Positions 37,088-64,000 of a stretch of 64,000 bases of DNA are shown here, one piece after another. Both the position numbers and the translations under genes were made by a program. The stretch is taken from positions 6,262,001 through 6,326,000 of the forward strand of contig NZ_CP062165.1 of NCBI RefSeq assembly GCF_014844075.1, written 5' to 3'. Under the pieces are notes generated by a model. It was not told the origin of the DNA, ran no database searches, and worked only from the letters and a program-made list of their open reading frames with translations. This DNA comes from Paenibacillus sp. JNUCC-31 (GTDB taxonomy: Bacteria > Bacillota > Bacilli > Paenibacillales > Paenibacillaceae). The stretch's first letter is position 1, and each line of letters opens with the position of its first letter.

Positions 37088-37182
37088 TCGGCACTTCGCA
37101 AATGGAACAATATGGTTTATTATGTATGTAGTTCAGAAATTAAGTTGAATGTGTGGAGTTTGCGAAGTACATAAATTAGATG
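37088..37182. other. Candidate attI-like region of cassette array 1
   Basis: TCGGCACTTCGCA at 37088-37100 is repeated exactly in front of array 2 (61294), and in both places TATGG follows 9-10 bases later. An inverted copy of ACTTCGCAAA lies at 37159-37168. The first cassette begins at the GTTATATG starting at 37182. Position and the shared motif suggest the primary insertion site, but no attI consensus is available for comparison. Confidence 0.4.
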
Positions 37183-37244
37183 TTATATGAAAGATCGGAA
37201 AAACAAGTAATTCAATAAAATTAAAGAAATAGAGGATGAATTCT

Positions 37245-37532
37245 GTGGCAATCTGTATTAAATTCAAGTTATATAGAATGGATGATAACAAAGCAGTATA
37301 TGCGTATGGGGATTGTTCAGAAAACTTGGAGGGACTATTTGAACTAGATTTAGAAAAATTAATATCAGGCGAGATTCCAAGTGATACGGATATGAGGGAA
37401 GTAGTGAAAGTAATTAAACCATGCATAAGTGATATAGATTACCAACATAAAGCAAACAGGGCATTTAGTAAAATCTATAAACATTATAAAGAGGCAAGAA
37501 CTTATTTATTAGAAGGCGGTTATTATGCATAG
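37245..37532 (+). CDS. Cassette 1: hypothetical protein, 95 aa
   Basis: A small soluble protein (VAICIKFKLYRMDDNKAVYAYG at the start). GTG at 37245 is chosen because GAGG lies 9 bases upstream; an in-frame ATG at 37236 sits on that site. A C-terminal helix (ANRAFSKIYKHYKEARTYL) is predicted. No family recognised; it could be an immunity-type protein, but nothing shows it. The cassette (37183-37749) begins GTTATATGAAAGATCGG and the complement of its end reads GTTATATGATGGATCGG. Confidence 0.65.
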   Translation: MAICIKFKLYRMDDNKAVYAYGDCSENLEGLFELDLEKLISGEIPSDTDMREVVKVIKPCISDIDYQHKANRAFSKIYKHYKEARTYLLEGGYYA

Positions 37533-37598
37533 ATTTTACTGATTAACACAATGAATAAACACAAAGTTGTGGAAGTAGTTCAAGATGCCCGATCCATC

Positions 37599-37755
37599 AT
37601 ATAACACATTATCTACGCTGCGGGCTCTGCCCTTGGTTCGCAAGATGGAGTAGTCAGAGAAGTGGAATCAGCTCACAACCCTACGAGGCTAAGTCCGTTG
37701 GACCCGGCGTGCGCGCCTTAAGCCTCTCGGGTTCGTAGATACACAAACGTTATGT
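37599..37755 (+). repeat. attC-like site 1
   Basis: 157 bp. R'' ATATAAC, then TATCTACG, a variable centre with several hairpins, then CGTAGATA and R' GTTATGT. The inner arms TATCTACG / CGTAGATA pair perfectly. Confidence 0.85.
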
Positions 37756-37791
37756 GAAATCACTTGAAATCCATTAAATAAAGGAGAAGCT

Positions 37792-38310
37792 ATGACCGAA
37801 TTGCCAAGAAGAATACACATCATTGGCTCTACTGGAAGTGGTAAAACATATCTAGCTAAAAATTTATCTAAACAATTGGACATTCCTCACTATGAACTAG
37901 ACAAGGTAATGTGGAGTAGTTCAGTAGAAATGGCAGGGAAAAATTCTCCTGAAGTTCGTGACAAACTATTAAATGAAATAATAGTAAAAGACTCTTGGAT
38001 TGTTGAAGGAGTTTATTACAAGTGGCTGGCTGAGAGTTTCGATTTAGCGGACAAAATTATATTTTTAACACCAAACACTTTTGTAAGAGACTTAAGAATA
38101 ATTAATAGATTTATTAAACAAAGAATAGATATTGAAAAGTCTAATTATAGACAAACACTAAAAGGACTATTGGAAATGATTAAATGGAATCATGGATTTG
38201 AAGCGCAGAAAAAGAAGGAGATCTTAGAAATATTAAAACCGTATGATTACAAATTAGAAATATTAAAGAATAATAATGCAAAATCAATGAGAGTAATTCA
38301 AAGAAGCTGA
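37792..38310 (+). CDS. Cassette 2: P-loop kinase-like protein
   Basis: A 172-residue nucleotide-binding protein resembling DNA-topology-modulation/FlaR and adenylate-kinase-like proteins. Walker A is GSTGSGKT at residues 11-18; the aspartate of YELDKVMW at about 40 is typical of this group, and DKIIFLTPN follows as the third strand. The substrate is unknown. AAGGAG lies 6 bases before the ATG. The cassette ends are complementary over 14 of 16 bases (GTTATGTG...TCACT). Confidence 0.8.
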   Translation: MTELPRRIHIIGSTGSGKTYLAKNLSKQLDIPHYELDKVMWSSSVEMAGKNSPEVRDKLLNEIIVKDSWIVEGVYYKWLAESFDLADKIIFLTPNTFVRDLRIINRFIKQRIDIEKSNYRQTLKGLLEMIKWNHGFEAQKKKEILEILKPYDYKLEILKNNNAKSMRVIQRS

Positions 38311-38318
38311 GTGACCTC

Positions 38319-38433
38319 ACATAACATAATATTCAAGCAGCGGCTCCTTTGGAGCCTTGGTCTTCAAGGTGGATTTCGAAGAGGCATTTCAGTAGACAAC
38401 CCCTTCGGGTTCATGAATACAGAAACGTTATGT
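38319..38433 (+). repeat. attC-like site 2
   Basis: 115 bp. R'' ACATAAC, ATAA spacer, TATTCAAGC arm; at the other end TTCATGAATA, CAGAAAC, R' GTTATGT. Closely related in its whole length to sites 7 and 11. Confidence 0.88.
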
Positions 38434-38534
38434 GAAACTTCTGTAATGCGTATTAGGTCAAATGCATGTAATCAGAATTAAAGAAAGTGAAGATAAGTAT
38501 ATTCTATTTTTATTGCTTGAAGAAGGAGATTTAA

Positions 38535-38771
38535 ATGAAATTCATTGAAATTGGAATAGGTAACAAATGGTTTGTTAGAACTGAAACTGAATTAAATGAT
38601 GGAACTGAATTTGAAACTAAAGGTATAGTAAGACCAATTCAATGCCAGTCTATTTATTTGCGAGTTTGGATAGGAAAAAAAGTATATATCTATGACTCAA
38701 AAGAGGGGTTTAAAAAGACAGAAAAGAATAGGAATGAAATTAAAATAATATTCGGAATAAAAAGTCTTTAA
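38535..38771 (+). CDS. Cassette 3: hypothetical protein, 78 aa
   Basis: A small strand-rich protein (MKFIEIGIGNKWFVRTETEL, then IYLRVWIGKKVYIYDSKEGFKK). AAGGAG lies 7 bases before the ATG. The pattern resembles small SH3-like or phage-type hypothetical proteins, without a recognised family. Downstream of the stop, 38772-38879 is cassette filler. Cassette ends: GTTATGTGAAACTTC versus the complement GTTATGCGAAGCTTC. Confidence 0.65.
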   Translation: MKFIEIGIGNKWFVRTETELNDGTEFETKGIVRPIQCQSIYLRVWIGKKVYIYDSKEGFKKTEKNRNEIKIIFGIKSL

Positions 38772-38879
38772 AAAGTACAAAAATGTGTAAAGAACATCAA
38801 AGATCTGAAGAATTATTGAAACTAATTTAAATGAGGATATAAGAAGTTTGATTGAATAATCGAAGAGGACAGAAGCTTC

Positions 38880-38975
38880 GCATAACATAATATTCACGCT
38901 GCGGACATCCGTCCTTGGTCTGGCATTCGCCAGACACCCAGCATACGCTAGGTCGTGAATACAGGAACGTTATCG
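38880..38975 (+). repeat. attC-like site 3
   Basis: 96 bp. R'' GCATAAC, TATTCACGC arm, three inner hairpins (GCGGAC/GTCC, GTCTGGC/GCCAGAC, CCAGC/GCT), GTGAATA arm, CAGGAAC, R' GTTATCG. Confidence 0.88.
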
Positions 38976-38999
38976 TAAATTCCATAAGGAGCGAAAATC

Positions 39000-39605
39000 A
39001 TGGACAATCTAGTAAGAAATATAATTTATTCATCAATCAAAAATTTTTTTGAGAATGAAAGTGACTTCTTTGATTATACAAGTCAAACAGGAATGACAGA
39101 ATGGAATCTGACTCATCATTTGTGCAACGAACTTAGTAAGTATTTTCTTTGGTTGAATAAAGAAGTAGATGTAGCAAAAAGAAATTACGACAATAAAAGG
39201 CCTGATATTATTTTTCATAAAAGAAGAACGAATAAGTTCAATTTCTTAGTTGTTGAAGCTAAGAAAAATCCTAATGACAAGCAACTGGATATAATCAAGC
39301 TCAAAAACAATTGGATGGTGAGACCGCTTAATTACCGCTTTGGAGTATACATTAATATTTGGGGGAAAGGTGAATTTGAGGCGATCTTAATTACAAGAGA
39401 TGGTTCAGAAATAAAAATTGATGAAACTACTAGTAAATACATACCACCTACAATCATAAGCCAACAATTTGTAGATAGTATTAAAAAAACTATAGATGAG
39501 ATAGGTATAGAACCAAGAGATGAACCTTTAAATAGATCCTTAGAAGAAAAATTGGACAATGAAATTTTGAGAGGGTTTTCGTTAGAAGAATGGAACATCC
39601 GATAA
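39000..39605 (+). CDS. Cassette 4: PD-(D/E)XK nuclease-like protein
   Basis: A 201-residue protein. KRPDIIFHKR, FLVVEAKK at about residues 80 and 86, resembles the D...ExK core of the PD-(D/E)XK nuclease fold seen in restriction-type and HsdR-like N-terminal domains. Partner methyltransferase genes are absent. It may be a lone defence nuclease or a non-catalytic relative. AAGGAGC precedes the ATG. Its stop codon lies inside the R'' box of site 4. A second copy occurs at 43059-44497. Confidence 0.65.
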   Translation: MDNLVRNIIYSSIKNFFENESDFFDYTSQTGMTEWNLTHHLCNELSKYFLWLNKEVDVAKRNYDNKRPDIIFHKRRTNKFNFLVVEAKKNPNDKQLDIIKLKNNWMVRPLNYRFGVYINIWGKGEFEAILITRDGSEIKIDETTSKYIPPTIISQQFVDSIKKTIDEIGIEPRDEPLNRSLEEKLDNEILRGFSLEEWNIR

Positions 39606-39695
39606 CATAATATTCATGCTGTGGGCATATGCCCTTGGTCCGACATGCGTCGGACACCCAGCATACGCTGGGTCGTGAATACAGGAAAGTTAGAT
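39600..39695 (+). repeat. attC-like site 4
   Basis: 96 bp. R'' CGATAAC, TATTCATGC arm, hairpins GGGCATATGCCC and GTCCGACATGCGTCGGAC, GTGAATA arm, CAGGAAA, R' GTTAGAT. Confidence 0.9.
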
Positions 39696-39744
39696 GAAAT
39701 TACGATGCAAGTTCTTATCAAAATCAAAAACTATGAGGTGCATA

Positions 39745-40251
39745 ATGCCAAGACTAATTACATTGGCTGATGGAAGATCAGTAGAAGTTGAATGTGTAAG
39801 CTGCGCATTGACAAGTGGTTTGATTTCTTCAACAGGTGGAGTAATTTTTGAATCAAGCAACTTTCATGTCCATCAGGATATTGCTTATCCAATTAAAGGG
39901 TTAGTTATATTGGCTTCAAAGAGGCATTTTTACTGCATGGATGAATTAACAGATGAAGAGCGATTAGAATTTATTTCGTTAATCCATAAGCTCAGAAGTG
40001 AACAAAGAAAACGATTGGGAATTGATAAGGTCTATTATTTTTATAATGAAGATACAACACATCACTTTCATTTATGGATGGTTCCTAGATATGAATGGAT
40101 GTACCAATTTGGAAATTCAGTAGAATCATTAAGACCGGCATTATTACATGCAAGGAATAATATGAATGACGATGAGAATATGAAGAGTGTAGAAGAAGGG
40201 GTTAGCATGCTAAGAGAGGGCATGAGGGATTTTGTGAGTAGCTCAAGGTAA
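39745..40251 (+). CDS. Cassette 5: HIT-family protein
   Basis: A 168-residue histidine-triad nucleotide-binding protein. The motif HHFHLWMVPRY (about residue 113) supplies H-x-H-x-x-x; the third histidine of the classical triad is replaced by M. It would hydrolyse or bind AMP-type conjugates. GAGGTG lies 5 bases before the ATG at 39745 (MPRLITLADGRSVEVECVSC); an upstream in-frame ATG at 39694 lies inside the recombination site. Ends: GTTAGATG...TTAC complementary over 13 of 15 bases. Confidence 0.78.
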   Translation: MPRLITLADGRSVEVECVSCALTSGLISSTGGVIFESSNFHVHQDIAYPIKGLVILASKRHFYCMDELTDEERLEFISLIHKLRSEQRKRLGIDKVYYFYNEDTTHHFHLWMVPRYEWMYQFGNSVESLRPALLHARNNMNDDENMKSVEEGVSMLREGMRDFVSSSR

Positions 40252-40255
40252 CTCC

Positions 40256-40417
40256 ATCTAACAACGTATTCACGCATCGGGGCATTCGCCCCTCGGTTCG
40301 GCCGCGGATTTTCGGGGAAGCGGAATCAGCCGGACAACCCTGCGAGCCTAAGTCTGACGACCCGTTCCCTACGGTCACTTAAGCCTCTCGGGTTCGTGAA
40401 TGCGTAAAACGTTATAG
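40256..40417 (+). repeat. attC-like site 5
   Basis: 162 bp. R'' ATCTAAC, TATTCACGC arm, GGGGCATTCGCCCC hairpin and a longer centre, CGTGAATGCG arm, R' GTTATAG. Confidence 0.85.
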
Positions 40418-40483
40418 GAAATCAGCGCAAGAAATTAATTGATGAATTAACCTAAAGGGCAGTTATGCTTAGTGGAAATGAGC

Positions 40484-40523
40484 AAAAGCAGCTTATCCTC
40501 TGACGAGGAACGAGCTGCTTTTT
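40484..40523. terminator. Terminator inside cassette 6
   Basis: AAAAGCAGCT pairs with AGCTGCTTTT with an inner CCTC/GAGG stem. It lies beyond the stop of the minus-strand gene of this cassette and could also stop rightward read-through. Confidence 0.7.
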
Positions 40524-40625
40524 ACTCTTCTATCTTTTTTTCCATTTTGAAGTACCCATTCCCTCAAAATAGAGGTTTTTGCAGGGCTCTCTATTCAGGT
40601 GCGAAAAATTATTGCCAATACGGTA

Positions 40626-41051
40626 TTAGGTTCTCGTTTTAACGGCTAACCCACTAAACGATATCGGCCCAACAACATCGGCTCTTGTATTTGTAGTAAG
40701 ATTTTCTGCTGTGACTGTGTAAACATGGGTACCAGCTATTACATTTCTATCTTCCGCCTGGAACGTAACAGCATAATTTTGTTCAGAGCCAGCAGATTCG
40801 ATACCTTGTTGTGTGTTGAAAATCTCTCTTCCATCGCGGAAGATTCTAAAGAGTATTTGTGCAATACCAGTGACACCTCGAACACCCACGGTTGCTACCA
40901 AATCTACCCGATTACGTTGAGAATTGACTGGAATCCGTATAGTGATTGTTGCAAGGCGAGATCTTGCTGGTGAACGACGGATAATAAATGAGTTTGCTAA
41001 GTTGAATCTACGGCGCGGCTGGACGGCAGCTTTATCGAGAATACGTACCAA
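40626..41051 (-). CDS. Cassette 6: hypothetical strand-rich protein, opposite orientation
   Basis: A 141-residue protein rich in beta strands (RLATITIRIPVNSQRNRVDLVATVGV, GTHVYTVTAENLTTNTRADVVGPISFSGLAV). The C-terminal pattern is like that of some exosporium or spore-surface proteins, an impression only. TTG at 41051 is chosen because AAAGGAG lies 8 bases upstream. It is the only cassette gene on the minus strand and has its own terminator, so it is independent of an upstream array promoter. Cassette ends match over 15 of 18 bases. Confidence 0.65.
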   Translation of the reverse strand: MVRILDKAAVQPRRRFNLANSFIIRRSPARSRLATITIRIPVNSQRNRVDLVATVGVRGVTGIAQILFRIFRDGREIFNTQQGIESAGSEQNYAVTFQAEDRNVIAGTHVYTVTAENLTTNTRADVVGPISFSGLAVKTRT

Positions 41052-41361
41052 AATATCAACTCCTTTTATTTGATATCTCCAAGATATGTTGAACAAAAAG
41101 AGAATGATTGGACAATTATGTAAGATGCTTTAATTTGATTCAAATAGATTATGAACAATGGTAAAGAGCATATTACAGGTGGTGGTGAATAAGGGACGTA
41201 CAAGAAATCCTAACCATTCAACGTATTTCACGACTGTAATGTTACTAACTAAATAATTGTTATCCACCAGGAGCGCCTCAGCGGACACGGAATGAGTTGA
41301 GTTAACGGGAAGCGATAGTTAAGAAACAATGATTTTGTATTTCGAAGAAGGCGCTGGCATC

Positions 41362-41507
41362 CTATAACACAATATTCGCGCTGCGGGCCGTTGGCCCTTG
41401 ATCTGCCAGGAGTTTTTTCGAAGAAGAGGAGACAGGCAGATACATCCATTCCCCTAAGATAGGAGCTATCTAGGGGAATGGACGTCGCTAATACAAGAAT
41501 GTTATAC
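41362..41507 (+). repeat. attC-like site 6
   Basis: 146 bp. R'' CTATAAC, TATTCGCGC arm, GGGCCGTTGGCCC hairpin, CATTCCCCTAAGATAG with its complement near the 3' side, GTCGCTAATA arm, R' GTTATAC. Confidence 0.8.
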
Positions 41508-41547
41508 GTAATTAGAAGACCACGTAATTAAAAGAGGAGCGAAAAAA

Positions 41548-42420
41548 TTGAGTAATAGCATATTTGTTGCTTTATTGAATAGAAGAATAGAGAGCTTTGT
41601 TTCAACCTACATAGAAGATAGTAGGTCTTTATTCTTTAAACAAGACTCTTTATATCATCCAGGTGAATACGGTAGATACAGAGAGCAAACTTTTAAAGAA
41701 CTATTAAAACACGTTATTAATTCGAATTATGATATATCTGAAGGTTTTGTTATAACTAGTAAAGATCATATTAGCACGCAATGTGACGTTGTGGTTTATG
41801 AAGGGGAAGATACTCCGCTATTGCGAAATGATATTTCACAATTCTTTACAATTGAGAGTGTTTTGTCTATAGGTGAAATTAAATCAGATTTGAGTAAAGC
41901 TCAGTTTAAAGATGCTTTGAAAAAATTAGCTATAAATAAAATGTTAAGAAATGATGCCTCTAGCACCATTAAAGCAAAGAGAGGATCATTTATAGAGTAT
42001 GAGCAGTTAGTATCCTTCTTGGTATGTAAAAAGCTTAATTTCGATATAAGCACTATCGACTTTGATGAATTGTATAATGGTATAGAACATCAGTATCGTC
42101 ACAATGCAATTCTTAGTTTAGAGCAAGGCGTTTGGACATATATACTTCGATTTAAAGATTTTCCAGAACCTATGAGAAGTCATACAGAATCGATTGGTAT
42201 CAAAATGGATTCTTCTGTTATATATGAACATCCTATACATGGAGAGAATGACTCAATATACTTTTGCGAAAATTCATTCTTTAATTATGATGAAATGAAT
42301 ATTTATAATCATATTAGAAAATTTTTATTGATTATAGGTACTGCCATTGAAAGAACTAATTTATACAATTCAGAAATGCTGTTGTATTTAGATGAACTTA
42401 CAGATGAAATTTTTATTTAG
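41548..42420 (+). CDS. Cassette 7: DUF6602-like protein
   Basis: A 290-residue protein. HPGEYGRYREQTFKELLKHV, SEGFVITSKDHISTQCDVVVYEG and FFTIESVLSIGEIKSDLSK match the pattern of DUF6602 proteins, whose core (CDVVVY...GEIKS) looks like a restriction-endonuclease fold. A nuclease or nuclease-like defence role is possible but unproven. Start ATT-free; TTG at 41548 follows GAGGAGCG. The region after the stop is not a normal cassette end but runs into a decayed second gene. Confidence 0.7.
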   Translation: MSNSIFVALLNRRIESFVSTYIEDSRSLFFKQDSLYHPGEYGRYREQTFKELLKHVINSNYDISEGFVITSKDHISTQCDVVVYEGEDTPLLRNDISQFFTIESVLSIGEIKSDLSKAQFKDALKKLAINKMLRNDASSTIKAKRGSFIEYEQLVSFLVCKKLNFDISTIDFDELYNGIEHQYRHNAILSLEQGVWTYILRFKDFPEPMRSHTESIGIKMDSSVIYEHPIHGENDSIYFCENSFFNYDEMNIYNHIRKFLLIIGTAIERTNLYNSEMLLYLDELTDEIFI

Positions 42421-42643
42421 GTTAATATCTACAACATAAATAAGGTTAATCTTGTTGCAATATACTCGCTCCAAATCAGATCTGCATCATTCATGATGAT
42501 TTTTTTTAAGTACAACATGTTTGGGGTCGAAGATTTAGAAGACTTATTCATCCACACTGATGATAAAGTTAGTCAAGTTACTTATGCTTATGACAAAATT
42601 CATGATGAATAAGATGTATAGCATTCTGTTTCATTTCAGTATT

Positions 42644-42864
42644 ATAAATAATAGGAATTTAATGATTTTATCAGTAATTATAAGTATTTAGATGGGGTTT
42701 GGGATTGCTTATCTCCAATACTGCATGATATGTACGCAACTTATAGTAATTGGGATGAAGTCTCAGTTTTTAGCGAATTAGCCCAAACAGTGAGAAAACT
42801 ATGGGAAAACGTTGGTATAAGTATTGAGAATTCAGGATACCAATTGAAAGTAACAATAAAATAG
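42644..42864 (+). pseudogene. Decayed gene remnant fused to cassette 7
   Basis: An open frame without a start (NYKYLDGVWDCLSPILHDM ... SGYQLKVTIK) preceded by stops and a separate 33-codon piece at about 42518-42613. It looks like the C-terminal part of a lost cassette gene. The cassette start at 41501 (GTTATACG) does not match the end at site 7 (complement GTTATCAG), so two cassettes have fused and the attC between them is lost. Confidence 0.55.
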
Positions 42865-42912
42865 AAGCTTGGGACTGAAGATTAAGAATATTTAGAAGCA
42901 AATACTGACATC

Positions 42913-43027
42913 TGATAACATAATATTCAAGCAGCGGCTCCTTCTGAGCATGGGTCTGCGGATGGACTTCGAGGAGGAATTTCAGCAGACAACCCCTTTG
43001 GGGTTCATGAATACAGGAACGTTATCG
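42913..43027 (+). repeat. attC-like site 7
   Basis: 115 bp. R'' TGATAAC, TATTCAAGC arm, ATGAATA arm, CAGGAAC, R' GTTATCG. Its centre is like sites 2 and 11 and unlike site 3, although the cassette that follows is the same as the one after site 3. Confidence 0.88.
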
Positions 43028-43491
43028 TAAATTCCATAAGAAGCGAGGAGCGAAAATCATGGACAATCTGGTAAGAAATATAATTTACTCATCAATCAAA
43101 AATTTTTTTGAGAATGAAAGTGACTTCTTTGATTATACAAGTCAAACAGGAATGACAGAATGGAATCTGACTCATCATTTGTGCAACGAACTTAGTAAGT
43201 ATTTTCTTTGGTTGAATAAAGAAGTAGATGTAGCAAAAAGAAATTACGACAATAAAAGGCCTGATATTATTTTTCATAAAAGAAGAACGAATAAGTTCAA
43301 TTTCTTAGTTGTTGAAGCTAAGAAAAATCCTAATGACAAGCAACTGGATATAATCAAGCTCAAAAACAATTGGATGGTGAGACCGCTTAATTACCGCTTT
43401 GGAGAATACATTAATATTTGGGGGAAAGGTGAATTTGAGGCGATCTTAATTACAAGAGATGGTTCAGAAATAAAAATTGATGAAACTACTA

Positions 43492-44322
43492 GGGTGTGTC
43501 TTCAAACTCAGGCAAGCCACACCATGATGGATGCCAGAGTCAAAAAAGCCTTGAACGTACACGCTAATTTATCGTAGCGAGTCGCTAGACGACGATAGTT
43601 TTTCACTTTATTGAAGAAGCATTCCACTAAATGACGTTCTTTATAGATATCTCGATCATGTGGCTGAATCTCTCGGCGATTTTTCTTGCTTGGAATCACT
43701 GTAATCGCCTGTTGCTCGTCCAAAAGTGTCCGAATCGCATTCGTATCATACGCTCGATCGGCTAACACTTGCTTCATCTTCAGTTTCATGGCTTGAAGAA
43801 GCTCATAGCCCTGAACGGAGTCATGAGCTTCACCACCCGTTAATTCAAAACGAAGTGGATTTCCTAACGCATCGACCAAGGCATGAATTTTGGTGCTTAG
43901 TCCACCACGGGAACGTCCGATCGCTTGCTTGCTTTGCCCCCTTTTGCGCCCGATCCATGCTGATGAACGCGCACGATCGTGGCATCAATCATGATGCTTT
44001 CCTCGTCAGCATCCAGGGAGACATGCTTCAGCACCTCATCCCAAATCCCCGCTTTCTGCCAGCGTCGAAAGCGGGTGTAGACGGATTTCCAATGGGGAAA
44101 GTGGTCAGGTAGATCACGCCATGGGGCGCCTGAACGTGCAACCCAAAGCATTGCATTTAACATGATTCGGTTGTCCCATGCGGGGCGTCCTCCTTGTGGT
44201 TTTCGTTCAGGTGGAAACAGGTCTTGAACTCGCTGCCATTGTGTCTCTTTTATTTCGTATCGAGTATTCATCTAAACTATTTAACCCATGTATTACCATT
44301 CAAACAGTTTGAAGACACGCCC
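43492..44322 (-). mobile_element. IS5-family (IS427 group) element, copy 1
   Basis: 831 bp with ends GGGTGTGTCTTCAAACT and its near complement AGTTTGAAGACACGCCC. The target TA is duplicated, as shown by comparison with the uninterrupted cassette 4 (CTAC-TA-GTAAA). Inserted in cassette 8. Confidence 0.92.
43508..44271 (-). CDS. IS427-group transposase, two frames joined by frameshifting
   Basis: The first frame (43897-44271, 124 residues) has the IS5-type start RYEIKETQWQRVQDLFPP and MIDATIVRVHQHG with the first catalytic aspartate. The second (43508-43879) has LADRAYDTNAIR and YKERHLVECFFNKVK, giving the remaining D and E. In IS427-group elements the two are fused by programmed frameshifting; the overlap here contains a run of G and A suitable for slippage (GGGGGCAAAGC). 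Both frames are intact. Confidence 0.88.
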
Positions 44323-44491
44323 TAGTAAATACATACCACCTACAATCATAAGCCAACAATTTGTAGATAGTATTAAAAAAACTATAGATGAGATAGGTAT
44401 AGAACCAAGAGATGAACCTTTAAATAGATCCTTAGAAGAAAAATTGGACAATGCAATTTTGAGAGGGTTTTCGTTAGAAGAATGGAACATC

Positions 44492-44551
44492 CGATAACAT
44501 AATATTCATGCTGCGGGCATACGCTGGGTCGTGAATACAGGAACGTTAACG
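44492..44551 (+). repeat. attC-like site 8, shortened
   Basis: 60 bp. R'' CGATAAC, TATTCATGCTGCGGGC, CGTGAATA, CAGGAAC, R' GTTAACG. It is site 4 with its central hairpins deleted, since both follow copies of the same cassette. Confidence 0.88.
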
Positions 44552-44673
44552 GAAATCATTTGCAAGTATAAAAGCCTCTAAAAGGAGTAAGAGAATGAAA
44601 AAGAACAAGTCTCCAATCCTAGAATTAACTACTCAAGAGAGAAAGGAGTTAAGAAAAAATAAAATACTAATTA

Positions 44674-55119: not shown

Positions 55120-55189
55120 TGTCTCTCGTCCCCTCGTCTGCTTTCATTTGATTTCATATGAGGGTGTTTTTCGACTGCATTTTTATCGT

Positions 55190-55569: not shown

Positions 55570-55704
55570 TTACGACAACACGCTCCAATCGAGAAAATGG
55601 AAAAAACGACAACCCTTCTCGTGATTAAGGCGGAAGTGAAAACCGTCAAGCTTTTTTGAAAGAAAAGTATCTACAGTTTCCCAGCGTGCAATAGGTAAGG
55701 ACAT
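55570..55704 (-). CDS. Possible small protein, 44 aa
   Basis: MSLPIARWETVDTFLSKKLDG and on, with GGAGGG 7 bases before the ATG. No family recognised; it may be a remnant of a larger gene. A hairpin of the CCCTCCTAC/GTAGGAGGG type at 55702-55724 overlaps the ribosome binding site. Confidence 0.3.
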   Translation of the reverse strand: MSLPIARWETVDTFLSKKLDGFHFRLNHEKGCRFFHFLDWSVLS

Positions 55705-55801
55705 GAAAAACCCTCCTACAACGTAGGAGGGTGCACGATGCTTCAAGGAAAACCCTGTCTCGGCGAATACCGAAAGGCTATACTGTTCCAAAGCAGGGCT
55801 G

Positions 55802-57429: not shown

Positions 57430-57595
57430 GGTGTCTCTTCTGATTGTTCTCATTCTATAACCTCTCTCTATTTGGGATAACCAGTACTTTAGTCGCTCCA
57501 TATCAACTGAACCTCAAGTGAGGCTGCGAATCGAGGTTGATGTTCGGTTTACTTTGAGACAGTATAATAAGGCTATGGGGAGGGAGGGGTGCACC

Positions 57596-58270
57596 GTGTT
57601 TAATATACTTGTGGTCGAAGATGATGCCAATACGCAAAAGCTGCTCTGCGCTGTGCTCAAGCATGGAGGGTTTAATGCCTATCCGGTTAAGAATGGGCTC
57701 GAGGCGCTGAGCAGGATGGAGGGGCAGCGCTTTGACTTGATTGTGTTGGACCTGATGATGCCGGAGATGGATGGTTATCAATTATGCAAGGAATTGCGCA
57801 GCGTTGGGGACCATATCCCGATCCTGATGGTGACGGCTATGCATGATATCACGGATAAGCACCAAGGCTTCCTTGCGGGGACGGACGATTACCTGACGAA
57901 GCCGTTCGACGAGCAGGAACTGCTGTTTCGTATTAAGGCACTGCTGCGCAGAGCGCAGGCTGCCAGCGAGCACAAGCTCGTGTTGGGAGAGACCACAATG
58001 GATTACAACGCGCTAACGGTTACGAGAGGAGCGGAGCAAACTTTTTTGCCCCAAAAGGAGTTTTACTTGCTGTTCAAGCTGATGAGCTATCCTGACAAAA
58101 TATTTACTAGATTGCATTTAATGGAAGTGATTTGGGGGCAGGATACCGAGATAGATAGCCATACCTTGAATGTCCATATCAATCGATTGCGCGACAAATT
58201 CAGGGGCAATCCGGATTTTGAGATCGTGACGGTGCGCGGGTTGGGATACAAGATCGCGAAGCGCGTGTGA
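57596..58270 (+). CDS. OmpR-family response regulator
   Basis: A 224-residue regulator. The receiver domain has DD near residue 8, the phosphorylated Asp in LDLMMPEMDG (about 53) and LTKPF (about 103). The C-terminal winged helix shows LVLGETTMDYNALTV, ILFKLMSY..., and VHINRLRDKF...TVRGLGYKI. GTG at 57596 has GGAGGGAGGGG upstream and places the receiver at the usual start. It lies divergent from the exporter, so a detoxification module sensing a peptide antibiotic is likely. Confidence 0.88.
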   Translation: MFNILVVEDDANTQKLLCAVLKHGGFNAYPVKNGLEALSRMEGQRFDLIVLDLMMPEMDGYQLCKELRSVGDHIPILMVTAMHDITDKHQGFLAGTDDYLTKPFDEQELLFRIKALLRRAQAASEHKLVLGETTMDYNALTVTRGAEQTFLPQKEFYLLFKLMSYPDKIFTRLHLMEVIWGQDTEIDSHTLNVHINRLRDKFRGNPDFEIVTVRGLGYKIAKRV

Positions 58271-58284
58271 AAGGGGTGAGAAGG

Positions 58285-59349
58285 ATGCCAAGCAGGCATA
58301 GAATTGTTCCACAAAAAATCAGTCTGGCGTTTTCCTTGGTAGCGTTGGTATTTGTGGTCATGGTGCTATCGATTGGTTCCGCAGGCTTGCTTGCTTTTTT
58401 GCTTTATCGGGCAGGTCTGCTCGACATGAATCAGCCGGCGCCGATGCGCGGGGTGTATGTGTTGTTATATATCAGCTTGTTCCTGGGGGTGGTGATCGCC
58501 GCGCTGTTGAGCCGATGCTCGGTGAGGCCGATCCGGGATATGATGGAAGCCACGAGTAAGGTGGCGAAGGGGGATTTTTCCGCTGAGGTGACGGCGAAGG
58601 GAAGCATTGTTTTTGAGCTGGATGCACTCGCGGCGAGCTTTAACAAGATGGTGCAGGAGTTGAAGGGGATTGAGTCGTTACGCAGTGATTTCGTGCGGAA
58701 TTTCTCCCATGAATTCAAGACTCCGATCGCCTCGATCAGCGGCTTCGCCAAATTGCTGAAGAAGGGTGGCCTCAGCGAGGAAGACAAACAGGAATATCTG
58801 GACAGCATTATTCAGGAATCCGAACGATTGGTCGGTTTATCGACCAGTATTCTCAACCTGTCGAAGGTCGAGAATATTGAGATCGTGAGCGAAAAGTCCG
58901 TCTATCGCCTGGACGAGCAAGTCAGGCTGGCGATCCTGATACTGGAGCCGAAGTGGAGTGCCCGCAACCTCCAGTTGGAGCTTGCCTTGGACGACGAGAT
59001 CGAGATATGTGGCAATAAACATTTGATTCAGCAGGTGTGGATCAATGTGTTGGATAATGCGATTAAGCATTCGAGCGGTGGCGGGGCGCTAAAGGTTGGC
59101 TTATGGCAACGCGGTGGGGCGGTGGTATTTCGTCTTGAGGATCAAGGATGCGGGATGAGCCAAGAGACGATGCGGCGGATGTTTGACAAATTTTATCAAG
59201 GCGATGCTTCTCGTACAATGGTGGGGAACGGACTCGGATTAACGTTGGTAAAGCGCATCGTCGAATTGTGCGAAGGATCGATTGAGGTGGAAAGTGAGCT
59301 TAATCGAGGTTCAATTTTTACAATCAGGCTACCTTTGAGGGCAGAATAG
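58285..59349 (+). CDS. Sensor histidine kinase
   Basis: A 354-residue kinase partner of the preceding gene. Two membrane helices (about 10-38 and 52-75) enclose only a short loop, so the stimulus is probably sensed within the membrane or through the transporter. HAMP follows (SVRPIRDMMEATSKVAKGDF), then the H-box FSHEFKTPIASISGF (about 152), N-box NVLDNAIKH, G1 EDQGCGMS and G2 GNGLGLTLV. ATG 58285 is preferred; GTG 58267, overlapping the previous stop, is possible. Confidence 0.87.
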   Translation: MPSRHRIVPQKISLAFSLVALVFVVMVLSIGSAGLLAFLLYRAGLLDMNQPAPMRGVYVLLYISLFLGVVIAALLSRCSVRPIRDMMEATSKVAKGDFSAEVTAKGSIVFELDALAASFNKMVQELKGIESLRSDFVRNFSHEFKTPIASISGFAKLLKKGGLSEEDKQEYLDSIIQESERLVGLSTSILNLSKVENIEIVSEKSVYRLDEQVRLAILILEPKWSARNLQLELALDDEIEICGNKHLIQQVWINVLDNAIKHSSGGGALKVGLWQRGGAVVFRLEDQGCGMSQETMRRMFDKFYQGDASRTMVGNGLGLTLVKRIVELCEGSIEVESELNRGSIFTIRLPLRAE

Positions 59350-59559
59350 AAATTGAAGCTCAGGAAATAGTAAATGTTAAAGTTATCTATTTGCTAAATA
59401 TCCTCTCTAAATTTTGCCCAAAGGGTGTAAAACCCAGTGTGAGAGCAAATGAAACTGGAGAAATTGGGTCATGAAACCGATTTGGAATAAGGAAGAAGCC
59501 GCCAATTTTTCCAGAGGAATCTCAAAAAACCAGCCGATGAAAGGGCAGATAATGCTAGA

Positions 59560-60531
59560 TTATAAGATGCGTTTCATATTTTCCACGGGACTAAATTTCT
59601 TGTGTTGCTGCTTGATATCGCTGCTGAACAACTCGACATAGTAGTCAACCATTTTTAGCGAAGCGTGCCCCAAGATACGTCTAAGTGTAAACGGATCTCC
59701 ACCGTTCAAAATATAAAATTTAGCCATTGTATGCCGGAACGTGTGTGGGGAGACTCTGACGCCGGTAATGCCTGACACGCTACCATAGGTCTGCATTTTG
59801 TCTTGCAAGGCGCGTGTACTAATTTGTTCGTTGTCCATGTTGACGAATAAGGCATCGGTCTCCATGTCTCCTCGTATGTCCATGTATTTACGAATGATTT
59901 TCCCGCAGGTTTGTTGGAACGGCACTCTGCGTGCCCGTCCACCTTTTCCCTTCGTGATCCGAATCTCCAATTCTTTGAAAAAGATGTCACTCGTCTTCAA
60001 ATTGCATAGCTCCCCGATTCTCATCCCCGTTTCAAGCAACACCATCATCATTGTAAAATCTCGATAACCAGTAAACGTTTTTTGATACGGTTGCTCAAAG
60101 ATGGAGACCACCTGCTCTTTCGTAAACGTTTGAATCATCAGTTTCTTGGCTTTGACCGCATGGAGATCTTTTGCAATGTTCTCTGTCAGCCAGCCTTCTT
60201 CAAATAAGTACTTGAAAAATTGTTTTATGGCCTTGATTCGTCCGTTTACCGTATTGTCCGACCTGCCTTGATCAAACAGATAGGCAATAAAATGATTCTT
60301 GATTTCGCGAATCGATACCGAATAGATATCAAACGGTACTTGCTGCACCAGAAATGCGCCTTTCATCTGCTTGGCGCTGTCTTGGTAAAATAGAAGTGTC
60401 AATGGCGAAAGGTTTTTGGCCTTGCAATCGAGAATAAAGGAATGAAGCAGATCTTCAAAACTGAGTTGTTGTTTCGCTTGGCTTGAATTTTCTACGTGTT
60501 CCAGCTTGTTTTGTCGACGACCAACATTCAT
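59560..60531 (-). CDS. Tyrosine recombinase (XerC/D-like)
   Basis: A 323-residue integrase. The N-terminal core-binding domain is FEDLLHSFILDCKAKNLSPLTL... The catalytic set is R in TGMRIGELCNL (about 177), K in TKGKGGRAR, HTFRH (about 268), LGHASLKM and the nucleophile in VDYYVELF. The extra helix of IntI-type integron integrases before HTFRH is not seen. Its ATG overlaps the stop of the upstream recombinase. It reads away from cassette array 2, as an integron integrase would, so it is the best candidate here to move cassettes. Confidence 0.87.
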   Translation of the reverse strand: MNVGRRQNKLEHVENSSQAKQQLSFEDLLHSFILDCKAKNLSPLTLLFYQDSAKQMKGAFLVQQVPFDIYSVSIREIKNHFIAYLFDQGRSDNTVNGRIKAIKQFFKYLFEEGWLTENIAKDLHAVKAKKLMIQTFTKEQVVSIFEQPYQKTFTGYRDFTMMMVLLETGMRIGELCNLKTSDIFFKELEIRITKGKGGRARRVPFQQTCGKIIRKYMDIRGDMETDALFVNMDNEQISTRALQDKMQTYGSVSGITGVRVSPHTFRHTMAKFYILNGGDPFTLRRILGHASLKMVDYYVELFSSDIKQQHKKFSPVENMKRIL

Positions 60532-61210
60532 TTACTCTTCACCTCGCTCTCGGGTAGCAGGTGAAGAACTTCGGCTAAATGTTCGATGGGACTGAACTTC
60601 TCATGCTGGGCTTGCAAATCGCTGGCAAATAATTCAACATACATTTCAGTCGTCTCGATTTGGGCGTGCCCCATTATGCTCTTGAGCGTGAAGACGTCGC
60701 CGCCATTTAATAAGTATTTCTTGGCATATGTATGTCGAAAGGTATAGCAGGAGCATTGAATGTCATCAATTTTGGCGGTTTGGCAGTAGCGGGCAATCAT
60801 CGTGCGAATGCCGCCAGGCAAAAAGGGCTGATTATCCAAGTTGACCCAAAGGGCATTATGCTCCAGATTGCCACGTTCCAGCAAATAGTGCTTCAATTCA
60901 CCCGCGGCAATTCGTTCAATCGGAACTAAACGTGACTTCCTTCCTTTCCCATGGTTAACTCGCAGGGAACCTTCATCCAGTAAGACATCAGTGCAAGCAG
61001 TTGGAATAGATGCTCGTCGGTAAACGTGTGGGCAGAAGATGGTTGTAGTTGAAACGGCTTGATATCTGCGCCAAAGGGCTCGTCAAGCAGGCTGGGCAGC
61101 ACTTGCTTTTTGAAGACGGCAGGTGAGAGATCTCGTAGTTGCAGTTCCAAAGCATTGAGGTGCTGCTGAAAGTTTTTCCAAGCCATTGCGATAACGGCGA
61201 ATGCTCTCCT
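60528..61210 (-). pseudogene. Second tyrosine recombinase, broken
   Basis: The N-terminal piece (FAVIAMAWKNFQQHLNALEL ... FTDEHLFQLLALMSYW, 60926-61210) and the C-terminal piece (LRVNHGKGRKSRLVPIERIAAGELKHYL ... FRHTYAKKYLLNGG ... EMYVELF, to 60528) are in different frames. About 30 residues with the first catalytic arginine are missing between them. The first histidine of HxxR is a tyrosine (CYTFRHT). The beginning of the gene is also lost. It was the first of two coupled recombinase genes. Confidence 0.82.
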
Positions 61211-61293
61211 ACTGAAGTTCCTAACTTTTCAATCTTGAATAAATAACTGTACAGCATCGTTCCAGCCTGAGTTTAATTTAAAGCTTTTCTTGT

Positions 61294-61323
61294 TCGGCAC
61301 TTCGCATTTCCTCCCTATGGAGT
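61294..61323. other. Candidate attI-like site of cassette array 2
   Basis: TCGGCACTTCGCA (61294-61306), nine bases, TATGG, then GTTATGCG at 61323 where the first cassette appears to begin. The same arrangement of motif and TATGG is found at 37088. It lies directly between the recombinase remnant and the array. Confidence 0.45.
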
Positions 61324-61366
61324 TATGCGAACCAAAGCGGATATGCGAAGGAGGGGAGTGGGATTC

Positions 61367-61481
61367 GTATAACATAATATTCAAGCAGCGGCTCCTAACG
61401 GAGCCTTGGTCTGCTAGAAAAATTTGGAGGAGTATTGCAACAAGACAACCCTTCGGGTTCATAAATACAGGAAAGTTATGC
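61367..61481 (+). repeat. attC-like site 11
   Basis: 115 bp. R'' GTATAAC, TATTCAAGC arm, TAAATA arm, CAGGAAA, R' GTTATGC. Same type as sites 2 and 7. It ends a 152-bp cassette without a gene. Confidence 0.87.
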
Positions 61482-61526
61482 GCCATTACCGGTAAATATT
61501 AAAGATAATATTTAAGGAGATCATTT

Positions 61527-62180
61527 ATGAAAGGTAAGATACTCTTCTTATTTTTTATTACGATAATGTTTTCATCTTGTCAAAATAGTAGTCAATCGAC
61601 TACTTTGAACAGCGAAACTAATTCAATAATGAATTCTGAACTGCCTCCTGATGTAGTGAGTACAGGTAATGGAACAGAATCGAAAGAAATAACTGAAGGT
61701 CGATCAGATGCTTCTAACAATGAAGTGTTAACCATGAGCATTGGGAACCTTGATTTGAAAGGAGAATTTTATGATGAAATGCTTCGAAATCCTATAGATC
61801 ATGATTATGAAGTGGAATTTAATGAATTTCAAAATTCCAAAGAGATTATTACAACATTGGGATGGGGGGCTTTGGAAAGCAAATATACAGAGATTTGGGA
61901 TAAAGAGTTGAATCAAATATATAAAAAGCTTCTTTCTAAGTTGGATAGAGAACCAAGAGAAGCACTAATTGAATCGCAGAAAGAATGGTTACAGTATCAC
62001 TTAAAAGAAACAAAATTTGTAGAGAAGACATTTATTAATAATGGTTACCTTGGATCAAAAGGATCGGTAAGCCTAGGCACGGTTATACGGGAGAGAATTA
62101 GGGAAAGAACAATGCAATTATTTGAATATCGATATTTGCTAGATGGTGAAGTTGAGTTTGTATACCAAAGTGAAAAATAG
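61527..62180 (+). CDS. Cassette 12: lipoprotein with LprI-like (DUF1311) domain
   Basis: A 217-residue lipoprotein. The signal peptide KGKILFLFFITIMFSSC ends in a lipobox with the modified cysteine at residue 17. A polar linker follows. Residues about 115-205 (YTEIWDKELNQIYKKLLSKL, REALIESQKEWLQYHLKE) match the helical DUF1311/LprI pattern, which in other bacteria inhibits lysozyme. It would sit on the outer face of the membrane. AAGGAG precedes the ATG. Confidence 0.8.
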   Translation: MKGKILFLFFITIMFSSCQNSSQSTTLNSETNSIMNSELPPDVVSTGNGTESKEITEGRSDASNNEVLTMSIGNLDLKGEFYDEMLRNPIDHDYEVEFNEFQNSKEIITTLGWGALESKYTEIWDKELNQIYKKLLSKLDREPREALIESQKEWLQYHLKETKFVEKTFINNGYLGSKGSVSLGTVIRERIRERTMQLFEYRYLLDGEVEFVYQSEK

Positions 62181-62232
62181 AGATGGAATCTTGACCAAAG
62201 GTTTTAGGTAATACTTTGAAGACAGTAATGGC

Positions 62233-62358
62233 GCATAACAATGTATTCATGTTGCGGGGCTACCACCCCTTGATTTTCAGATGTATAATCATGGAAGAAC
62301 GCTTAGACAACAAACGACCCAGCCTAAGATAAGAGCTATCTAAGGGAAAACGTTAGAT
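62233..62358 (+). repeat. attC-like site 12
   Basis: 126 bp. R'' GCATAAC, TATTCATG arm, GGGGCTACCACCCC hairpin, R' GTTAGAT. The 3' L' arm is degraded (GGGAAAAC before GTTAG), so this site may be weak. Confidence 0.7.
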
Positions 62359-62375
62359 GAATGGTTTGAAAGGCG

Positions 62376-62768
62376 GTGAAGTTCTCAATCATGAAACCAG
62401 AAATGAAGTATAAATTAATGATATTTCTTTCAAGTATAGGTTTCCTCACAACCATGCTTGGAATTCTATATTTGATCGGCGTGCCATTCTCAGAGCCAGC
62501 CATTATTGGAGTCGTAATTGGTACAGTCTTTGGATCATTCGCGAAAACAATTGATTATAAGAGCAGAGATAAATATATAGGATTAATTGCTGTAATTGCA
62601 TTGATAACTATTCTTCTTTTAATAAATAAAAATGATACTGAGATGGTATGGAAAGTATTATTGATATCTCCATTATTATTTTTGATTATTTTAGTAAATG
62701 ACTATTTTAATAAGCAATTGTATTTTAGGTATTTAAAGAATATAGAGAATCAGAATAATGTTATGTAA
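62376..62768 (+). CDS. Cassette 13: small membrane protein
   Basis: A 130-residue protein with four membrane helices (about 13-32, 38-55, 65-81, 90-110). No family recognised. GTG at 62376 lies close after AAAGGCG; an ATG at 62391 (MKPEMKYKLMIF) with GGCGGTGAAG upstream is equally likely. Confidence 0.65.
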   Translation: MKFSIMKPEMKYKLMIFLSSIGFLTTMLGILYLIGVPFSEPAIIGVVIGTVFGSFAKTIDYKSRDKYIGLIAVIALITILLLINKNDTEMVWKVLLISPLLFLIILVNDYFNKQLYFRYLKNIENQNNVM

Positions 62769-62790
62769 TTTAATGGAAGTCAGCCCCATC

Positions 62791-63032
62791 ATCTAACACT
62801 ATATCCACGCATCGGCCCTCGGTTCAGAAGGAGCCATATGTGGTTCGATGAGGCATTTCACAATGGGGAAGCAGAAGCAGCCGGACACATCCGCACACAT
62901 CCGCGAAAAAATATTAATTTTTATTAAGCCCGATCAAGATTACTCGGCATTTAAGATATATATTAATTAAAGAGATGTTATTGTTTCATAGAAGGCGTAT
63001 GAAGGGACGTCATGAATATAGGAACGTAAGAC
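62791..63032 (+). repeat. attC-like site 13, expanded
   Basis: 242 bp. R'' ATCTAAC, TATCCACGC arm at the 5' side; CATGAATA, TAGGAAC and a mutated R' GTAAGAC at the 3' side. About 100 bp of AT-rich DNA in the centre looks inserted. The stretch 62769-63130 holds no gene. Confidence 0.7.
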
Positions 63033-63130
63033 GAAATATATGCAATTTAAAGTCTATTCAAAAACTATATTAAAACAATACGAGTATAGAGTAGATTGAA
63101 ATATCAATTTTGAGAAGGTTGGTGTTTCTT

Positions 63131-64000
63131 GTGTCGAACAACAGACAACTTACAACATCTCAGAACGCTGCAATTGAATACATAAGTCATTGCGCGAGAT
63201 CCCAAAAGAAAGAGGCTCAAGCATCACTCAAAGAAATTTTTCAGTTATCCAATATTCCTTGGAATACCTTTGAAGAAGCAGTTCATAAGCTTAGATCCCA
63301 TGCAAGGGTGGCTTTGCATTTTCATCCTGATCGTCCGGTTGTAGAGTTGAAAAGTGTGGCCCAATCATTATTTGAGCAGGGGATCTATAAAAGTCAGTTC
63401 GAGACTCTCATATCCAATGGGAGCGTATCGGCTTATTCAGGTGGTCCAAGGGATCTTTGGGAAGAAAAACTATTTGGCGGAGCTTATCAGTTAGAGGGTG
63501 TAACCAACTTTGAAAGGCCAAAGTATGGGGCTCTTCATTTGTTGTTGCATCCGGATGGGCCGTCTCCACGATTCGGATCTTGTTATTTTCTTTTAAAACC
63601 GAATGTTTCACACCGCTGTACGTTCACTTTCGGTGGCTCTCAAGATGATCCGAAGGAAAAGGGGACGGTTGAGGAATTAGACGATATTTTATCTGCGCTT
63701 TTTACGGATGCTTTCTTTCGGGATTATGCTATTGGAGAAAAAGATCTGACTCCTAAAAAATTGATAGAGCAGCTATTGTATAATCTGGAACGTCCGTTAG
63801 AGGACCCATCAAAACTGGCTCCATATCGGAATCTTAACCATTTTATCGAAACTCAAATTCATGGAGATATCGTTCTTGAAGATGATGTGGAAATTTTAGT
63901 GGCTGACCCATCGTTCAAAGGAACAGAAATAGGGAATTACTTAGAGCAAATCTGCATCAAATATTCCATTGAACTATTTTGGCATATGGGATTTGCGATG
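63131..64000 (+). CDS. DUF3626-family protein, cut by the window end
   Basis: The first 290 codons of a gene running off the window. Features of DUF3626 are seen: ALHFHPDRP (about residue 62), GVYSQFET-like GIYKSQFETLISNGSVSAYSGGPRDLWE, and YGALHLLLHPDGPSPRFGSCYFLL. The function is unknown. It starts at GTG with GAGAAGG about 10 bases upstream. Position after site 13 makes it the next cassette, if a recombination site follows beyond the window. Confidence 0.75.
   Translation, partial: MSNNRQLTTSQNAAIEYISHCARSQKKEAQASLKEIFQLSNIPWNTFEEAVHKLRSHARVALHFHPDRPVVELKSVAQSLFEQGIYKSQFETLISNGSVSAYSGGPRDLWEEKLFGGAYQLEGVTNFERPKYGALHLLLHPDGPSPRFGSCYFLLKPNVSHRCTFTFGGSQDDPKEKGTVEELDDILSALFTDAFFRDYAIGEKDLTPKKLIEQLLYNLERPLEDPSKLAPYRNLNHFIETQIHGDIVLEDDVEILVADPSFKGTEIGNYLEQICIKYSIELFWHMGFAM

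Follow-up and report, generated by a model that had tools for sequence, protein, structure and literature searches.

Integron-like gene cassette arrays in Paenibacillus and a linked tyrosine recombinase of a clade separate from IntI

The region analysed here, referred to as the window, is a 64,000-nt stretch (positions 6262001-6326000) of the single 7.55-Mb contig of Paenibacillus sp. JNUCC-31. Between window positions 37182 and 63032 it carries array A, a series of 12 complete attC-like sites of 60-242 bp and one half site, all on the plus strand and located between unrelated genes (Table 1). Each site leads from TAAC through a 4-nt spacer and a TATTCAnGC arm to a variable centre, often with further hairpins, and from there through a TGAATA arm and a 7-nt spacer to GTTA. 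The initial annotation of this DNA had counted 13 palindromes of 60-242 bp; 12 are complete, whereas the thirteenth, at 46715, is a left half only, its right arm being gone at about 46803, by eye the edge of an insertion. The attC layout that it described (R'', an ATAA-type spacer, TATTCAxGC, a centre, TGAATA, a longer spacer and GTTA) holds for the 12 delimited sites, as does its account of repeats that separate unrelated genes. In our view the array is very probably part of a sedentary integron system in the chromosomes of the Paenibacillus order, which works like an integron with a tyrosine recombinase of a clade separate from IntI.

A covariance model trained on 10 of the window sites (R1; S12 and S13 lie outside the training set) gives 35 matches at E<=10 over the genome, all on the plus strand, with 150 of 1495 first-look candidates scored. 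The matches fall into array A (12), array B (14) and array C (7), and two weak ones lie outside (E 0.42 and 3.0). None of the window sites matches an Rfam family at E<=1; over the window as a whole there are two Rfam matches at this threshold, both at 1283-1341 (either strand) and far under the gathering score. These results bear on the idea that the repeats are transposon-like or RNA elements, such as miniature inverted-repeat transposable elements, retrons or intron relics, that came to lie between genes by chance. Although the repeats are palindromic, variable in the centre and present in many copies, they lack Rfam relatives and are confined in JNUCC-31 to the array regions and to one strand, save for the two weak matches. 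Moreover, as described below, their pairing joins the ends of a gene-bearing unit, and whole units are common to genomes in which the neighbours differ. We regard a chance distribution of such elements as extremely improbable.

The fold of the sites is conserved. Over 422 sites from 45 loci, the spacers measure 4 nt in 301 of 305 and 7 nt in 281 of 309 motif-fitting cases, AAC is present in 408 sites and GTT in 399. The integron R box has the consensus RYYYAAC/GTTRRRY, which the outer letters of the window sites do not match in full. In an alignment of 101 distinct sites, which was fitted to the covariance model and thus leans towards the fold, 93.3% of pair cells are paired, compared to 33-39% in slid versions, and 13 of the 16 pairs show compensatory change; none of 500 shuffles equals any of the covariation measures. 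In 100 sampled sites, the fold of the bottom strand is more stable than that of mononucleotide shuffles (mean z -3.4; z below -2 for 73 sites).

The segments between the sites are units whose two ends are matched to each other. The start of a cassette (GTTA...) is complementary over ~17 nt to the stretch before its own R'', not to the ends of other cassettes. For 12 window cassettes, own start and end match at 127 of 216 positions, where the maximum of 100,000 permutations is 109. We extended the comparison to 340 cassettes of 150-2500 bp from 45 loci (median length 660 bp), leaving out L111, which overlaps L157, and aligning at one step the best 150 of 223 sites, with 73 dropped. Of the 18 positions compared, 10.73 match between a cassette's own ends, 6.31 between ends taken from different cassettes of one locus and 6.40 between the left and right side of a single linear site; at least 10 matched positions are found in 267 of 340 own pairs versus 210 of 3704 other pairs. 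The signal resides at positions 5-7 and 12-17 (66-89% in own pairs versus 29-53%), positions 8-9 are mostly constant, and positions 10-11 form a conserved mismatch, that is, a 2-nt internal loop (40% and 4% in own pairs). With the ends a cassette length apart, the pairing would close only in the excised circle, which points to a selected function of the circular cassette form. The longest reading frame runs with the array in 274 of the 340 cassettes and opposite to it in 41; the other 25 have no frame of 60 residues.

Arrays B and C begin just behind the two best matches of the genome to the integron integrase model TIGR02249, both of them tyrosine recombinases (best pieces 113 and 108 bits, cut-off 265). 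Behind both recombinases lies an attI-like element that has inverted arms and, at its end, the GTT of the first cassette; such an element also opens array A. The geometry was compared over 22 loci, consisting of arrays B and C and 20 recombinase places chosen by us, in fetched stretches weighted downstream. In all 22, every site lies downstream of the recombinase and on its strand, and none upstream. The GTT of the first cassette, located by own-end pairing, follows the recombinase match by 108-258 bp in 21 of these loci; the procedure failed for L157. The sequence before the first cassette, a putative attI, is similar from locus to locus in the genus, and other genera have a different one. 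At L168-L171 it contains GAAGTTCG..AATA repeats, which in our reading resemble the L'-R' half of the site itself. Near the starts of 20 recombinase genes, the best match to the 12-nt SOS-box core has one mismatch in 5 cases (two just inside the gene), two mismatches in 10 and three in 5; of 1000 shuffles, 8 have no mismatch and 89 have one.

In the Protein Data Bank (PDB), the array recombinase comes closest in sequence to an archaeal XerA-like protein (1.5e-39), followed by the Vibrio integron integrase 2a3v (1.7e-36). The alignment to 2a3v is split in two, with 57 residues between the pieces in IntI and 15 in the array recombinase. By alignment, the IntI-specific insert is absent from 35 of 35 Paenibacillales rows, some of them near-duplicates, and present in 8 of 8 IntI proteins. 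Open frames with the motif were obtained for this alignment from 28 of 30 typed loci; two group loci, two Xer-type loci and the L178 region yielded none and were left out. The best NCBIfam model for 10 of 10 proteins is NF040815 (210-226 bits; cut-off 220, reached by 3), and TIGR02249 gives 192-213 bits (cut-off 265). The SPLD-type C-terminal tail aligns to the end of IntI. In a 39-row tree, from which nine near-duplicate rows were removed (one further frame extraction gave no frame in 2 of 32 loci), the array recombinases form one side of a branch (support 97/99) and the IntI proteins another (99/96).

The N-terminal 90 residues are predicted to form a confident separate domain (block pLDDT 88-95; modelled alone, mean 87 and pTM 0.76), and the best match of the whole predicted structure is 2a3v (6.0e-16, TM 0.40). 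At Foldseek E-values of 0.1-0.5, the matches of this domain include Mfd, XPB, the HARP domain of SMARCAL1 and MutS. The domain, weakly HARP/XPB-like in these comparisons, may read branched or folded DNA in place of the IntI-specific domain.

The system extends over the order. A dedicated covariance model, applied to a limited number of candidates per genome and with rough E-values, finds sites in 74 of 75 genomes of the genus, in 173 of 245 genomes and 17 of 19 genera of the family, and in 151 of 246 genomes and 26 of 46 genera of the order. Among 299 genomes across the phylum, 7 have a match: 2 from the genus itself and 5 from outside it, in each of which the match is single and weak (E 2.4e-6 to 4.2e-4). 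The recombinase (query P0086, E<=1e-40) is found in 86 of 246 order genomes and 23 of 46 genera. Its occurrence is associated with that of the sites: in the family sample of 245 genomes (query P0016, E<=1e-30), 97 have both, 76 sites only, 71 neither and one, G106 (6.2e-31, 34% identity), the recombinase only (Fisher P 9e-19). It is present in 92 of the 120 genomes that have at least 8 scored sites and in 3 of the 33 that have 1-3. Array A (8925 bases) has one match, of 124 bp, among 72,556 plasmid records. The recombinase matches 346 plasmid records at E<=1e-40, 20 of which cover at least 80% of its length, and four phage records, none of which covers the N-terminal domain. The half-site pattern has a single exact match in each of eight IMG/VR viral contigs (L221-L228).

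Cassettes are reshuffled between genomes. The 340 cassettes form 290 families at 75% identity, 17 of which occur in at least two genomes. None of 272 neighbour pairs recurs in a second genome, nor does any of the 6 pairs whose two cassettes both occur in more than one genome. Among shared cassettes (65 pairs), identity rises from 0.37-0.38 in the stretch 40-20 nt ahead of GTT to 0.96 over the ten nucleotides that directly follow it; values of 0.66-0.79 in the last 20 nt before GTT arise because those nucleotides belong to the conserved site arm. At the place of array B, 8 species with upstream flanks 86-94% identical have 0-1 cassettes in common in each of 28 pairs. The checks proposed by the initial annotation included folding the sites, searching other Paenibacillus genomes with a dedicated covariance model and looking for different cassettes at one place in relatives. 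The first two of these gave the conserved fold and the near-universal occurrence in the genus described above, and the third turned up different contents at the places of both array B and array A. Scattered repeats and a shared gene order, which it had named as contrary outcomes, were not seen: there are no strong scattered copies in the JNUCC-31 genome and no common cassette order among the relatives. Its view of an unusual native array in Bacillota has to be revised, as the array is no single oddity but one instance of a system found across the order.

Several observations weigh against the proposed integron system. Everything presented here is sequence or predicted structure, from which the mobility of the cassettes is deduced. 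One window cassette, cassette 7, does not pair its own ends. The preference for the bottom strand is modest: it is the more stable one at 278 of the 422 sites, the top strand at 140, with 4 ties. The 22 loci were our own choice, and the view upstream of the recombinase is ~1-6 kb in 21 of them and 14 kb for array C. No recombinase is seen at E<=1e-30 in 76 of the 173 site-bearing genomes of the family. The sister relation to IntI is supported at 89/78 with five Xer-type outgroup rows and with a program warning of long branches meeting. The N-terminal domain matches Pfam HARP at E<=0.05 in only 6 of 46 proteins; the curated cut-off of this family (PF07443) is not reached, the best score being 24.9 bits versus 25 (P0085). 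In a PDB profile search the HARP structure 4o66 ranks second (E 0.39), after a globin (0.2). Foldseek finds nothing for the domain at E<=0.001, and a protease and ribosome recycling factors appear in the same E-value range as the DNA-related matches.

Both recombinase genes of JNUCC-31 also look interrupted by frame breaks (L044:5752-6615; L046:14431-15302), so cassette movement may have ceased in this strain if the breaks are not errors of the assembly. Array A itself is split by insertions and has one duplicated cassette, a half site and two weak last sites. These features would suit a reading in which the arrays are relics, inactive in this lineage, and shared cassettes have spread by homologous recombination. 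Many relatives, however, have full-length open recombinase frames, the homology of shared cassettes drops at GTT, and one cassette is 97.9-98.8% identical to a cassette of another genus (cassette 5; genome G183). As an account of the system the relic reading is unlikely, while for JNUCC-31 alone it may apply.

Array A has no recombinase of the family beside it: in the window, query P0016 finds only Tn-type recombinases (22-23% identity) and one 37-residue piece (E 0.22). To place array A among its relatives, we fetched 20-kb stretches around arrays of nine relatives that are far from their recombinase array. The Gfo/Idh-type oxidoreductase that precedes array A also precedes the array in 8 of the 9. 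The gene is 78-92% identical, and the first cassette begins 171-268 bp past it, compared to 169 in the window. The attI-like element at this place has a BLAST match in 3 of these 8 relatives; in the remaining 5 it was recognised from own-end pairing and by inspection. Relatives of P0016 at E<=1e-5 are absent from all nine 20-kb stretches, and pairs among 9 genomes have 0-3 cassettes in common at this place. With the attI-like element kept and arrays present there in 8 of 9 relatives, the place looks like a permanent second landing site rather than a stray fragment; this suggests that it is supplied in trans by a recombinase encoded elsewhere.

An attC array with no integrase nearby, as array A is, corresponds to the description of a cluster of attC sites lacking an integron integrase (CALIN), and a true IntI acting from elsewhere might then account for ordinary CALIN in these genomes. 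TIGR02249 does have matches in JNUCC-31, the one genome that our IntI search covered. Its best matches, however, are the recombinases beside arrays B and C, which belong to a family without the IntI-specific region, and an array lies downstream in all 22 chosen recombinase loci. We consider the action of a true IntI very improbable.

For the integron-like system preferred here, we propose the following mechanism. The recombinase would recognise folded attC-like sites, mainly on the bottom strand, and its presumed catalysis would excise cassettes as circles. The circles would be inserted at the attI-like site or beside another attC, with the crossover probably between G and TT of GTTA, so that cassettes accumulate in arrays and turn over. 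By their layout, arrays B and C would be complete platforms with recombinase, attI-like site and array; array A would be a second landing site, an attI-like element without a recombinase, presumably served in trans. The N-terminal domain may stand in for the IntI-specific domain in reading the folded site. The arrays, site structure, cassette units, shuffling, linkage to a recombinase and lack of the IntI insert are read directly from the sequences. As the recombinase is not IntI, the term integron-like used by the initial annotation fits, whereas integron by the usual IntI definition does not apply (insert absent 35/35). We would place the system in a new class within the integron kind, set apart by its recombinase.

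Relatives of the recombinase occur in Bacteroidota. Its matches include plasmid proteins of two Chryseobacterium and one Pontibacter (37-38% identity over 94-97% of the length). Own-end pairing is seen for six cassettes on the Pontibacter plasmid, with ends picked by eye; of 720 orders, the true one alone attains the score. A wider scan of genome contigs was made with a Bacteroidota protein, and the best 80 of 579 loci are mostly Bacteroidota, a bias to be expected of this query. In the 34 loci with at least 2 kb downstream (3 of 37 had less), chained cassettes are found downstream in 20 and upstream in 1, exact 9-nt pairs number 115 versus 24, and 22 of the loci have a pair that starts 95-118 bp past the recombinase match. 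The 24 sites obtained from 9 loci measure 124-135 nt including flanks. The insert is absent from 14 of 14 of these recombinases, and 10 of the 14 have a simple N-terminal motif. In a tree, a branch with 99/96 support unites the Bacteroidota and Bacillota recombinases, and IntI is set off by another (100/99). The occurrence of similar arrays beside a sister group in Bacteroidota is a lead, which comes from chosen loci and a simple script. Several contigs (among L229, L230, L231 and L232-L311) end just behind the recombinase, as repeats would cause. At L229:10053-17879, a 282-nt repeat, possibly a long site type, is present four times behind a Chryseobacterium recombinase (77-96% identity to the reference copy).

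Taken more broadly, it is likely, with less assurance than for the Paenibacillus system itself, that a second integron class exists. Its recombinases would be of a non-IntI clade, without the IntI domain and mostly with an N-terminal domain that may read branched DNA. It would be native to the Paenibacillus order and to many Bacteroidota (Flavobacterium, Chryseobacterium and others), and in Bacillota it would use recurring recombinase-less landing sites in trans.

The features of the window are listed in Table 1. Array B contains further copies of cassettes 5 and 6; the former is also present in array C and the latter in G013. Between arrays A and C a cassette gene is near-identical while its attC-like site has clearly diverged (L046:18970-19130 versus window 40256-40417). 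Cassette 7 is perhaps two fused cassettes with a lost site, given the long tail behind its gene. Two near-identical insertion sequence (IS) copies lie in neighbouring cassettes, one of them within the duplicate of cassette 4. The later insertions contain an IS30-like transposase, an M20 peptidase, a serine dehydratase, an ABC transporter, two-component genes and Tn-type tyrosine recombinases; two adjacent frames of the last kind, on the minus strand at 59560-60896, are 22-23% identical to the array recombinase.

Cargo was surveyed in 120 cassette proteins from 270 representatives of at least 80 residues. Pfam assigns NUDIX domains to 5, GNAT acetyltransferases to 5 and DpnII-MboI, HEPN and RelA/SpoT to 2 each. 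PADLOC lists PD-T7-4, PD-T4-6, PDC-S14, AbiJ and other defence candidates, mostly one protein each. Judged from their translations, array B cassettes carry a beta-lactamase-family hydrolase gene (L044:14101-15645) and a nucleotidyltransferase-like gene (L044:16531-17298). At L175 (G161) and L176 (G085), a single cassette family is repeated 9 and 5 times, as by local duplication.

Table 1 Features of array A and its surroundings in window positions, and of arrays B and C in contig positions. Site scores are in bits of model R1.
Feature	Position	Strand	Description
Gfo/Idh/MocA oxidoreductase	35916..37013	+	chromosomal anchor left of array A, outside it
attI-like site	37094..37188	+	before cassette 1; inverted arms CTTCGCAAAT .. 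TTTGCGAAG, end ..TAGATGTTA
Cassette 1	37182..37605	+	98-aa ORF 37236-37532, no Pfam match; own ends pair
S1	37599..37755	+	attC-like; 106.6
Cassette 2	37749..38325	+	172-aa protein 37792-38310, weak AAA/P-loop matches; own ends pair
S2	38319..38433	+	attC-like; 103.5
Cassette 3	38427..38886	+	short ORF (by eye); own ends pair
S3	38880..38975	+	attC-like; 87.7
Cassette 4	38969..39606	+	201-aa protein 39000-39605; near-identical copy is cassette 8; own ends pair
S4	39600..39695	+	attC-like; 83.7
Cassette 5	39689..40262	+	185-aa protein 39694-40251; own ends pair
S5	40256..40417	+	attC-like; 98.2
Cassette 6	40411..41368	+	156-aa gene on minus strand, 40626-41096; own ends pair
S6	41362..41507	+	attC-like; 105.8
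Cassette 7	41501..42919	+	DUF6602 protein 41548-42420; own ends unpaired
S7	42913..43027	+	attC-like; 102
Cassette 8	43021..44498	+	copy of cassette 4, broken by IS (~43489-44326); own ends pair
S8	44492..44551	+	attC-like, shortest (60 bp); 57.3
Cassette 9	44545..45927	+	Cdd1-family protein, frame 45491-45874; broken by second IS copy (~44671-45508); own ends pair
S9	45921..46106	+	attC-like; 88.5
Cassette 10	46100..46721	+	GrpB-family protein; own ends pair
S10	46715..46803	+	half site, clear left arm only; 43.9 over 46715-46883
Later insertions splitting array A	46804..61366		edges by eye
S11	61367..61481	+	attC-like; 101.6
Cassette 12	61475..62239	+	LprI-like protein 61527-62180; own ends pair
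S12	62233..62358	+	left half clear, right arm degenerate; 26.3 (weak)
Cassette 13	62352..62797	+	130-aa protein 62376-62768; own-end pairing below most others
S13	62791..63032	+	ends GTAA, not GTTA; 24.8 (weak)
Array B	5269106-5279454 and 5292235-5294267	+	11 and 3 R1 matches
Array C	5318296-5325843	+	7 R1 matches

A 2022 survey with IntegronFinder 2.0 reports one complete Firmicutes integron (Limnochorda pilosa) and a few CALIN (PMC9024848). A paper on archaeal integrons defines IntI by an additional domain near patch III, by which IntegronFinder identifies it, and calls this domain necessary for integron recombination (PMC9668308). Other papers select IntI by the same additional domain and note an absence from Firmicutes (PMC2426708), or list Firmicutes among the phyla with integrons (PMC8618304); a further one mentions Paenibacillus only in distant protein matches (PMC4909258). 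Among the titles and abstract openings returned by our searches of open-licence papers, none concerns native integrons of Paenibacillus or its order, although a report outside this material is possible. The system could have been overlooked, even though the closest relatives nearly all have it, because the recombinase that apparently runs it does not contain the domain that defines integron integrases. If our reading is correct, a finder that requires the IntI domain would miss these loci as complete integrons, and integrons, held to be rare in Bacillota, would be near-universal in one genus (74/75) and common in its order (151/246). The IntI-specific domain would not be the sole route to recombining folded attC sites. 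The sites, the Bacteroidota sister clade and the second landing sites would make the origin and minimal requirements of integrons testable, and the cargo includes defence-like, NUDIX, acetyltransferase and restriction genes.

Among known systems, XerA, XerC and XerD (NF040815, TIGR02224 and TIGR02225) share the catalytic domain with the array recombinase, NF040815 being the best model in 10 of 10 cases. In contrast to Xer proteins, the array recombinase is linked to attC-like arrays and has an N-terminal extra domain and the SPLD-type tail. This extra domain has a weak likeness in sequence and fold to the HARP and XPB damage-recognition domains, below significance in most tests, and differs from them in being fused to a tyrosine recombinase. 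CALIN resemble array A in that no recombinase of the family stands beside it, but array A has an attI-like element, 8 of 9 sampled relatives carry an array at the corresponding place, and the JNUCC-31 genome has a recombinase beside arrays B and C. The closest parallel in layout is to the sedentary integrons of the Vibrio type, with a tyrosine recombinase, an attI-like site, one-directional and mostly one-gene cassettes, folded R''/L''/L'/R' sites, mutually complementary cassette ends and a crossover at G/TT, which is presumed here. In a Vibrio control array, in which R1 finds nothing at E<=0.01, 10 pairs were listed by a motif that missed sites; 7 join neighbouring motif hits, and 6 of these 7 pair, the exception being 7572-9152. 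The Vibrio array thus also pairs its own ends, and own-end pairing is common ground with ordinary integrons. It differs in length and inner loop, with 17 nt and a 2-nt internal loop here versus runs of 9-12 nt in the Vibrio control. The recombinase differs in turn: it belongs to another clade, has no IntI-specific insert and carries the N-terminal extra domain; at the 22 chosen loci its gene precedes the first cassette and reads in the cassette direction.

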